Shown here one piece after another: positions 19,695 to 22,628 of a stretch of 64,000 bases of DNA (its first letter is position 1; each line of letters opens with the position of its first letter). The translations under genes and the position numbers were made by a program. The DNA is taken from contig NZ_CP129235.1 in NCBI RefSeq assembly GCF_030413635.1, positions 372,001-436,000 on the forward strand. The letters are read 5' to 3'. The notes below the pieces were generated by a model. That model saw nothing but the letters and a program-made list of their open reading frames with translations, had not been told where the DNA came from and did not search any database. The DNA is from Planococcus shenhongbingii (GTDB lineage: Bacteria; Bacillota; Bacilli; Bacillales_A; Planococcaceae).

Positions 19695-19722
19695 AACCCT
19701 TCAATTTTGAAGGGTTTTTCTT
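19695..19722 (+). terminator. Terminator
   Basis: AAACCCTTCAA / TTGAAGGGTTT stem with T5. Confidence 0.85.
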
Positions 19723-19728
19723 TTCGAA

Positions 19729-19800
19729 GTAAATTAAATTACTCTAGAAAGAAAAATAATATTGCTTTTAAAAGTAAAATGAATTACGATTAAAAGTAAT
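19729..19800. promoter_or_regulatory. AT-rich region with GTAA/TTAC inverted repeats
   Basis: Directly before the HTH/F1-like gene are AGTAA-ATTAAA-TTACT and AATTAC-N8-GTAATT, plus two copies of TTAAAAGTAA. They could be binding sites for that gene's own HTH domain; this is inference only. Confidence 0.35.
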
Positions 19801-19817
19801 TAGGGAGGAGGAATGAA

Positions 19818-20846
19818 ATGGACGATATAAGATTGAATGTCGCATTACTGAGAAAGCGGGTGCCGAATTTAACGACCGCTGCTAAAGAAGCAGGCATTCG
19901 GCCGGCGACAGTTTCCAATTTATGCACCGGCAAAATCGATTTGGGGAAAGCGGAAGTGAAAACTTTGGTTGGTCTGGCTAAACTGGCAAAGTGTACAGTG
20001 GATGAACTCATTATCCGGGGGGAGAAGATGGCAATGATCGAAACTAAGATTAAAGCATTGGATTTTTTCGCACCATTAGTAAAGTACGGCACAACCGGCA
20101 TTGTTGCACGTCCAGGGATGGGGCAGCTGGTGATTATAGCTGAATTGCTTCATCGTTTTAAAGAACAGGAAGTAAAAACAGTTTATCTGATTCCGGAAAA
20201 CGATCATCCGGAACTGGAGGGAATAGTTGAACTGGCAGACCACATGACTCGCTCTGTTGCAGAAACTTTGGAATGGTTAAGGGAATATGGTGACAAAACG
20301 GTGCTGGTTACGGAAAAAGGAAGAGTAGATTCAGGGGAGCTGTTCGAATTGCAGGAAGCGCTCGGCGGCAAACAAGTCACGACGCTGCTGGTGGATTTGT
20401 CCGGCGAAGTAGTGGATGACGATTTTCCGTTTGGCCCGCTTGAAACCGTTTGGCAGTTGGATGCAGACTTAGCTGCGCGCCATCAGTATCCGGCTTTGAG
20501 TCCGCTTCATTCCACGTCTTCTTTGTTGGAAGAAGCCGGTTTGGATGAACGCCATTTTCTGCTTCGCCAACGTGCGCAAAAAACGCTTCGCCGCTACCGG
20601 GAGCTTCGGTCCATCGTCAATGCTCACGGAATGGAGCGCGTGCCGCAAGTGGAAATCGAAACGTATCGCCGTGGAGAACGGCTGGAAGCATATTTTACCC
20701 AACCTCTGTTTGTAGCTGAAGAGCTTACCGGCCAAGCAGGCGCAGCCGTTTCTCTGGCAGAAACTTTGAACGATGTGGAAGCCATTCTAAATGGCCAGAC
20801 AGATGCAAAGGAATTGAAAGAATTGCAATTTATTGGAACATTGTAA
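19818..20846 (+). CDS. HTH domain fused to degenerate F1-ATPase beta-like domain
   Basis: 342 residues, start behind GGGAGGAGG. Residues 1-66 form an XRE-like helix-turn-helix (NLTTAAKEAGIRPATVSNLC). Residues 73-342 follow F1 beta: KIKALDFFAPLVKYGTTGIV matches the region before the P-loop, WQLDADLAARHQYPALSPLH followed by STSSLL matches the catalytic-site region, and LRRYRELRSIV, FTQPLFVAEELTG and SLAETLNDVEAILNG match the C-terminal helical domain. The P-loop reads ARPGMGQL (97-104): the catalytic Lys and Thr are gone, so ATP hydrolysis is unlikely. A second ribosome site and ATG lie at the junction (20017-20036). Function unknown; a nucleotide- or partner-sensing regulator is one guess. Confidence 0.75.
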   Translation: MDDIRLNVALLRKRVPNLTTAAKEAGIRPATVSNLCTGKIDLGKAEVKTLVGLAKLAKCTVDELIIRGEKMAMIETKIKALDFFAPLVKYGTTGIVARPGMGQLVIIAELLHRFKEQEVKTVYLIPENDHPELEGIVELADHMTRSVAETLEWLREYGDKTVLVTEKGRVDSGELFELQEALGGKQVTTLLVDLSGEVVDDDFPFGPLETVWQLDADLAARHQYPALSPLHSTSSLLEEAGLDERHFLLRQRAQKTLRRYRELRSIVNAHGMERVPQVEIETYRRGERLEAYFTQPLFVAEELTGQAGAAVSLAETLNDVEAILNGQTDAKELKELQFIGTL

Positions 20847-20868
20847 GGAGCCTTGTGCTCCTTTTTTT
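20845..20868 (+). terminator. Short terminator
   Basis: AAGGAGC / GCTCCTT stem followed by T7, overlapping the stop. Confidence 0.7.
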
Positions 20869-20981
20869 ATTGGTTTTATATGTGCATTAGCAACTGCAAA
20901 TTAATGAAATTCAATCTGGACTAAATTTAAAAGAGGAAAAAAAGGAAAGATTTCGGTATGCTAAAAGCAAGAGGTGATCAC

Positions 20982-22628
20982 ATGTTCAAAAAAGTGACCT
21001 TATATACAAATCGGCTAAAGGAAATGAAAGGGTTTTATGAGTATCAAATGGGTTTTCGGATCGTAGAAGAAGACGATACCAGCTTTACGCTGGCTGTCGG
21101 TGATTCTCAATTGGTCTTTCAAGCATCAGAACGGCCAGCGATTTACCATTTTGCATTTAATATTCCAGGCAACCAGTTTACACTGGCGAAAGGCTGGGCA
21201 AGTTCGCGTGTCACACTGAACCGCCAGGAAGGCATGGACGAAGTCTATTATGCAAATTTCAACGCGGATGCTTTTTATTTCCAGGATCCTGCTGGCAACG
21301 TGGTCGAGTTTATCGCCCGGCGCCATATCGACCGTATGGGCAATTTTACTGTTGATTCCCTGCTCAATATCAGTGAAGTGAGTATTACAACGAAACATGT
21401 GAAAGAAGTAGGAGAACAAATCGAAGCCATGGACATTCCAGTGCGGGGCAATAAAGGAATCGAACCACATGCATTGAATTTTCTAGGCCAAGGAGATGCA
21501 TTTATCTTACTGGTAGCTCCGAAACGGACGTGGTACTTCTCGAAGCAAAAGAGCGAAGTCCATCCTTTATCGATTGAGCTGATGGATGGACGGCAGATTG
21601 GCATCACAGAAGAAGGAGATTTTCAGGAAGTCCAACCGACTAATCCGATTTCTGAAGGCTTGGAAAATATGGACTTTTCAGGAGTTGCCTTGCTGAAAAA
21701 AGAAGATGTTTGGTCAACTGCCAAGGGATGGGCAGACCGTTCAAATGAGCGGCCGAATGCACTGGACACCCGATTCGGGATTGCATCTGGCTGCAAAATT
21801 TTCACAGCAGTGGTCATCTGTCAATTAGTTGAAGAAGGAAAACTGGCGTTTGAAAATCGTTTATCGCAGCTATTGCCGGATTTCTTCCCGGATTTTGATG
21901 TTACTGTCCATCAATTGCTGACGCATACTTCTGGAATACCGGATTATTTTGACGAAGAAACGATGGAGAATTTTGAAGAGCTCTGGGTAAAGAAGCCAAT
22001 GTATTTAATGAAGTCCGGAGCGGATTTTGTGCCGTTGTTTAAAGATGAACCGATGAAATTTGCGCCCGGGGAAAAATTCCAATACAACAATGCCGGGTTT
22101 ATTGCTCTTGGGCTTATTGCAGAGAAAGTAGCGGGCCAGGCATTTATCAATATGGCAGAAGAGAGAATTTTTGCACGGGCGGGGATGGAGAAGTCAGGGT
22201 TTTTCAGCCTTGACCACTTGCCTAAGGGAGTAGCTTACGGCTATATTGATGAAGGAGATTCATGGCGCACCAACCAATATGCCATCCCGATCCAAGGCGG
22301 TGCAGATGGCGGGGCATTTGTGACGGCCAGTGATATGACCGCTTTTTGGGAACGGCTGATGGATTATACATTGCTTTCTGAAGAAATGACCAAAAAAATG
22401 CTGGCGCCCCATGTCTCGGCGGGACAAAACGATTATGGCTACGGCGTCTGGATTATGCAGAAAGCGGATTTTGTCTGGAAATATCATATCACGGGATACG
22501 ACCCGGGTGTCAGTTTCCATTCCGGTTTTTATCCGCAAGATGGAACAATCCTGACGGTTCTGTCCAATAAAAGCGAAGGGGCTTTTGAAGCATTGAAGTT
22601 AATCGAAGGAACTTTTAAGAAGGGGTGA
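20982..22628 (+). CDS. VOC-domain / class C beta-lactamase-like serine hydrolase fusion
   Basis: 548 residues from the ATG behind AGAGGTGATC (an ATG at 20958 lacks a site). Residues 1-~210 are two glyoxalase-fold modules (VTLYTNRLKEMKGFYEYQMG; FQDPAGNVVEF). Residues ~218-548 are a penicillin-binding/beta-lactamase fold beginning NMDFSGVALLKKEDVWSTA. S269-x-x-K272 (SGCK) and Y368-N-N are present. The third motif reads ITGYDPG instead of the usual HTG/KTG, with a His one residue earlier. There is no signal peptide, so it is cytoplasmic. Likely an esterase or amidase rather than a beta-lactamase. The fusion is uninterrupted. Confidence 0.8.
   Translation: MFKKVTLYTNRLKEMKGFYEYQMGFRIVEEDDTSFTLAVGDSQLVFQASERPAIYHFAFNIPGNQFTLAKGWASSRVTLNRQEGMDEVYYANFNADAFYFQDPAGNVVEFIARRHIDRMGNFTVDSLLNISEVSITTKHVKEVGEQIEAMDIPVRGNKGIEPHALNFLGQGDAFILLVAPKRTWYFSKQKSEVHPLSIELMDGRQIGITEEGDFQEVQPTNPISEGLENMDFSGVALLKKEDVWSTAKGWADRSNERPNALDTRFGIASGCKIFTAVVICQLVEEGKLAFENRLSQLLPDFFPDFDVTVHQLLTHTSGIPDYFDEETMENFEELWVKKPMYLMKSGADFVPLFKDEPMKFAPGEKFQYNNAGFIALGLIAEKVAGQAFINMAEERIFARAGMEKSGFFSLDHLPKGVAYGYIDEGDSWRTNQYAIPIQGGADGGAFVTASDMTAFWERLMDYTLLSEEMTKKMLAPHVSAGQNDYGYGVWIMQKADFVWKYHITGYDPGVSFHSGFYPQDGTILTVLSNKSEGAFEALKLIEGTFKKG

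Follow-up and report, generated by a model that had tools for sequence, protein, structure and literature searches.

The window analysed here is a 64,000-nucleotide stretch of the Planococcus shenhongbingii genome, and the gene under study encodes a putative transcription regulator. Features of the locus are given below in window coordinates, with strand where a feature has one.

19717..19732, no strand: possible fourth, farthest palindrome TTTCTTTTCGAAGTAA, read by eye, 22 bp from the next and overlapping the tail of the upstream terminator
19739..19754, no strand: operator-like site 1, imperfect, TTACTCTAGAAAGAAA
19762..19777, no strand: operator-like site 2, TTGCTTTTAAAAGTAA, with the -35 box inside at 19762-19767
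19784..19799, no strand: operator-like site 3, TTACGATTAAAAGTAA, with the -10 box inside at 19785-19790
19802..19811, plus strand: ribosome-binding site AGGGAGGAGG, read from sequence
19818..20846, plus strand: regulator gene, 342 amino acids and stop
19818..20015, plus strand: HTH domain, residues 1-66 (weak HTH_26 match, model helices, near-invariant segment 28-40)
20025..20837, plus strand: F1-beta-like core, residues 70-340
20106..20129, plus strand: former P-loop ARPGMGQL, residues 97-104
20313..20315, plus strand: Walker-B Asp, residue 166
20845..20863, plus strand: intrinsic-terminator-like hairpin 3' of the regulator gene

A sequence-only reading had proposed that the gene encodes an HTH fused to an F1-beta core, and this architecture was borne out. 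Helices are present at residues 8-64 in a structure model of the protein, and HTH_26 matches with an E value of 0.0033. Both Pfam scores are below the gathering cut-offs, at 18.1 bits against 22 for HTH_26 and 14.2 bits against 23 for HTH_3. Structural matches of the model (VIA rows) cover residues 70-340 only, with the HTH part outside, and a sequence search with the HTH part returned no PDB relative. Segment 28-40 is nearly invariant: the forms listed among 239 relatives match RPATVSNLCTGKI exactly or closely. The protein resembles autorepressors of the XRE/Cro-C1 type (HTH_26, HTH_3) in its small N-terminal helical DNA-binding domain and in the palindromes over its own promoter, but differs from them in its sub-threshold Pfam scores. 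We know of no member of that group with an F1-beta domain. Pfam matches with E values up to 1 included neither a MerR nor a TipAS domain. A defence or phage origin was considered and rejected: PADLOC gave no match, and matches to phage repressors were weak and confined to the HTH part.

Two variant layouts were seen in passing. Copies at G030:C4:11828-12586 and G012:C57:35815-36594 start matching the model only at position 93 or 83 and are apparently HTH-less, and relative P0205 (516 amino acids, Paenibacillus tarimensis by source name) combines the regulator with a C-terminal DnaJ-related domain (PF09350, taken from a precomputed list).

Comparison of the core with true AtpD

Structural matches of the model gave the F1-beta fold over residues 70-340, with both the nucleotide-binding core and the C-terminal helical domain present. 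Profile comparison upheld the proposed relationship to F1 beta but placed the protein far below curated AtpD scores, at 102 bits with the full-length AtpD profile (TIGR01039) against a curated cut-off of 462.85. In addition to the fold, the protein shares with AtpD the Walker-B Asp, the YPA motif, the length of the DELSEED loop and a C-terminal sequence that follows AtpD from about residue 205. It differs in that the N-terminal beta barrel is replaced by the HTH, as first read, in a P-loop without Lys and Thr, in the absence of the catalytic Glu, in two internal deletions beside the Walker-B strand, and in its separate gene, which carries an operator-like array of its own. The DELSEED region, previously described as gone, is in fact aligned without a gap and altered; it reads GMERVPQVE, in which the acidic motif of AtpD is not kept. 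The beta-like proteins of G1-ATPase/MMOB1670 and MSC_0618, which are motor subunits, are other divergent F1-beta relatives. The window protein scores 91.9 and 96.2 bits with these profiles but does not reach their curated cut-offs of 850 and 570 bits.

Relatives were collected in two protein searches, one with the window protein and one with a distant relative, from which the best 120 of 711 and the best 120 of 859 matches were taken. The loss of the P-loop lysine, where ARPGMGQL stands in place of AtpD GxxxxGKT, was confirmed and is not private to this strain: among the 239 distinct relatives listed, the lysine position is Q in 238 and K in one. At neighboring positions, R98 is shared by 230 and G102 by all 239. 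The sole K belongs to P0221 (350 amino acids, P-loop ARAGLGKL) and could represent either the old state or a reversion.

Most aromatic positions of the adenine pocket are retained: among the same listed relatives, the residue at Y224 is Y, F or W in 235 of 239 and position 297 carries F in 204. The Walker-B Asp is conserved in 237. These residues favor an energy sensor, in which the core would still bind an adenine nucleotide without hydrolysis and report the ATP/ADP/AMP state, with target peptidases or amidases feeding nitrogen or energy metabolism. Loss of the P-loop Lys and Thr and of the catalytic Glu argues against this, as does a target set that was found to be small and lineage-specific, and we consider the energy sensor possible but doubtful.

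The overall F1-beta fold also speaks for a regulator of F1 assembly, with a core that binds free F1 subunits and an HTH that reports them, or of a decoy beta subunit. Competition for F1 partners had been raised in the sequence-only reading, but looks unlikely because the protein lacks both the barrel and the two segments that adjoin the Walker-B strand. In addition, no TTRC-N8-GTAA or TTAC-N8-GCAA site is present in the 13 kb surrounding the genome's own atp operon, and control of that operon by the regulator was rejected on this ground. We therefore regard a role in F1 assembly as extremely improbable.

The operator-like array and its specificity

Nearly every family gene examined carries over its own promoter a conserved tandem array of operator-like 16-bp palindromes (TTAC-N8-GTAA) spaced 22-23 bp apart, and this array is new. 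Regulator upstreams were taken from 91 of 130 loci, and sites were counted in the 83 distinct sequences of 180 bp each. These contain 178 exact TTRC-N8-GTAA sites, versus a mean of 1.06 (largest 4) after shuffling. At least one exact site is present in 81 of the 83; for L033, one of the two upstreams without a site, setting the correct start codon brings an array into the right place. The spacing between palindromes was 22 bp 58 times and 23 bp 22 times. In 78 of the 82 upstreams compared (L033 left out), operators 2 and 3 hold hexamers that resemble -35 and -10 boxes and are 17 bp apart, and the -10 ends 20-25 bases 5' of the start codon in 67 of those 78. In two sites the letters TTG and TA-T can be put down to the promoter boxes; neither the GTAA halves nor the site farther out can. 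The operator-like sites thus overlap the gene's own promoter, as those of a one-component autorepressor do, and the computed array lends backing to the DNA-bound role proposed earlier. In Paenibacillus campinasensis the array is absent at the regulator gene, and a degenerate one is present at the operon head only. An array longer than usual, with several consecutive operator-like sites 5' of the gene, was seen at G259:C31:40429-40510.

The regulator gene is patchily distributed. Within the window's family, 39 full-length and 3 partial copies were found in 200 genomes, and 299 genomes of the class yielded 12 strong copies, including 5 from the window's family. Source names of the listed relatives include Planococcus, Psychrobacillus, Sporosarcina, many Bacillaceae, Paenibacillus, Alicyclobacillus and Sulfoacidibacillus, as well as a Symbiobacteriaceae MAG. 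In a tree of 81 regulator proteins, Sporosarcina occupies two well-separated places (L020 versus seven others), a placement that fits with some gene transfer.

In the 3.98-Mb genome that contains the window, the tandem pattern occurs once, at the regulator promoter (reversed control 1+1, one per strand). Single-site matches occur in four further places (reversed control 3+3) and look like chance; only L134 lies directly 5' of an ORF. A stricter tandem pattern was found in 25 of the 200 family genomes, with none in the reversed control. All 25 are among the 42 gene-positive genomes, and none of the 158 gene-negative genomes has the pattern (Fisher p 6e-21); 17 of the gene-positive genomes lack it. 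A second set of 49 genomes, located by way of named loci and partly overlapping with the 200 family genomes, had the strict pattern in 27; the reversed control was again 0. Together, 57 loci were kept from the two strict-pattern searches, and 54 of these are at the regulator gene itself, including the L145 array (69051-69088), which by its coordinates belongs to the regulator gene G159:C49:68009-69034. When up to two mismatches were allowed, matches were obtained in all 50 chosen gene-positive genomes, with a non-zero reversed control in 9 of the 50, and part of these matches were placed. Two-mismatch candidates in G096 and G041 were rejected, as they adjoin or sit inside unrelated genes.

The weak HTH scores leave some room for an array that belongs to another, widespread regulator, the HTH acting elsewhere or not on DNA. 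Against this stand the confinement of the strict array to gene-positive family genomes and the finding that arrays away from the gene turned up in genomes that carry it, and we judge this reading very unlikely. The array could also be used by an activator, or by a different regulator that is always found alongside the gene.

Hydrolase genes as possible occasional targets

At the stringency used, most genomes, including the window's own, reveal no target beyond the regulator gene itself. The other 3 of the 57 strict-pattern loci come down to two places, one in Psychrobacillus lasiicapitis and one in Pseudoneobacillus rhizosphaerae, each directly 5' of an M3-family oligoendopeptidase gene. M3 genes with arrays (L195, L199, L206, L211, L215/L239 and L235) form one clade, clade A, with support 1.0; L245 and L246 were joined to it by identity (52% and 58%). 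An array lies upstream of the clade-A gene in all 8 distinct genomes having it (scores 18.0-19.6), versus 0 of 39 other M3 loci reaching an array score of 17, some of them from the same genomes (p 3e-9). Among random 530-bp flank pieces, 0.56% of 5578 reach a score of 17 (maximum 19.0), and the scores at M3 and FmdA targets, 17.3-19.6, overlap this top 0.56%. Clade A is present in 6 of the 200 family genomes, all gene-positive (p 6e-5). Two of these six, G107 and G091, have the end of the M3 gene just ahead of the regulator gene, at distances of 20 and 23 bp respectively, and an exact palindrome lies 5' of M3; in G091 the M3 reading frame is broken. The genome that contains the window lacks a close M3 relative (best E 4.5e-11).

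Broken clade-A M3 genes were observed in two genomes, at L261:3122-4797 and G158:C16:59177-60862 (two frames; one TAG reported). Because of these interruptions, the M3 target appears to be decaying in some cases.

The second partner is a gene of the acetamidase/formamidase family (FmdA, PF03069). A close FmdA clade (at least 71% identity) was found in 6 distinct genomes among 50 entries searched, counting G167 and G523 as one genome, and it adjoins the regulator in 4 of the 6, downstream in L025, L040 and G280 and in the same operon in L081. An alpha/beta hydrolase accompanies FmdA in two cases: in G167 the pair follows a two-mismatch array, and in L081 the pair precedes the regulator, with a degenerate triple array at the operon head. 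G493 has a weak array at FmdA (score 17.0), and short FmdA remnants lie 3' of the regulator in G486 and G509. None of 9 loci from a more distant FmdA clade has an array score of 17 or more. Links of M3 and FmdA to the regulator are confined to a minority of species.

A fixed partner across genera was sought among 80 loci and none was found, steady neighbors being genus-wide only; the largest non-self neighbor cluster covers 26 of the 80 loci, at scattered distances and on both strands. In the window, the next gene (20958-22628) encodes a TxDE part (toxoflavin-degrading type) joined to a beta-lactamase-family hydrolase, and is separated from the regulator by the terminator-like hairpin. This gene is directly 3' of the regulator in L004-L009, with one gene between them in L010.

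Proposed mechanism, ligand sites and known systems

Taking together the computed fold, the family-wide lysine loss, the geometry of array and promoter, and the gene links, we think it probable that the window protein is a one-component autorepressor with an F1-beta-derived sensor and occasional amide-hydrolase targets. The HTH would bind the TTAC-N8-GTAA palindromes, probably as dimers, about two helix turns apart on one helix face. Because the sites overlap the -35 and -10 boxes, we infer that bound dimers would cover both and that the regulator gene would repress itself. The former F1-beta core would no longer hydrolyze ATP and would serve as a sensor, in which a ligand changes DNA binding and the promoter is freed. 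In most genomes the gene itself would be the only clear target; in some species an array or a shared operon would add an amide hydrolase, either the clade-A M3 oligoendopeptidase or a member of the FmdA family. A compound degraded by such amide hydrolases is therefore a plausible signal.

Candidate ligand sites in the core are the old nucleotide pocket and the cleft between the two F1-beta domains. Aurovertin binds bovine F1 beta in this cleft (PMC9615146), and the residues listed there were mapped by their bovine numbers onto the window protein. Of the 16 positions mapped, 7 are conserved at 95% or more in the regulator family, a marginal enrichment (p 0.05), and the pocket-conservation argument for the cleft is weak. 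The bovine numbering was anchored on the residues around Y345. R221, R258, R264 and E290 in the cleft are family-specific, at positions where AtpD is mostly neutral, and for this reason aurovertin itself is no obvious ligand. The arginines would make the cleft suitable for an anionic ligand.

These residues bear on a target mimic and decoy, in which the core would capture an F1-directed natural product and derepress its own gene for more decoy, with some species also making a hydrolase that destroys the compound, in a TipA-like manner. Self-control as the common theme, the listed amide-hydrolase partners and the conserved part of the cleft favor it; the family-specific charged residues and the borderline enrichment do not, and we consider it decidedly unlikely. 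We likewise give little credence to a further proposal, that across Bacillales and some relatives the dead core is the ligand sensor of a self-controlled regulator whose ligand, an F1-directed or peptide-like natural product, is captured by the protein and destroyed by the target amide hydrolases.

TipA proteins are described as minimal autoregulated multidrug systems (PMC7762955). The proposed autorepressor would resemble them in joining a DNA-binding domain to a ligand domain and in being mainly self-controlled; TipA differs in its MerR-type HTH, its other ligand domain, activation rather than repression, and a known ligand. The open-licence literature searched contained no description of an HTH/F1-beta fusion. 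AlbA has reportedly been grouped with TipA-type autoregulated drug-binding regulators.

If the autorepressor reading is true, a transcription switch has taken over a rotary-motor subunit as its sensor. The array and the small hydrolase target set make the gene testable with one promoter, one protein and one ligand. Relatives carry the database names 'hypothetical' or 'F-type ATPase subunit beta', and we flag a recurrent misannotation here.
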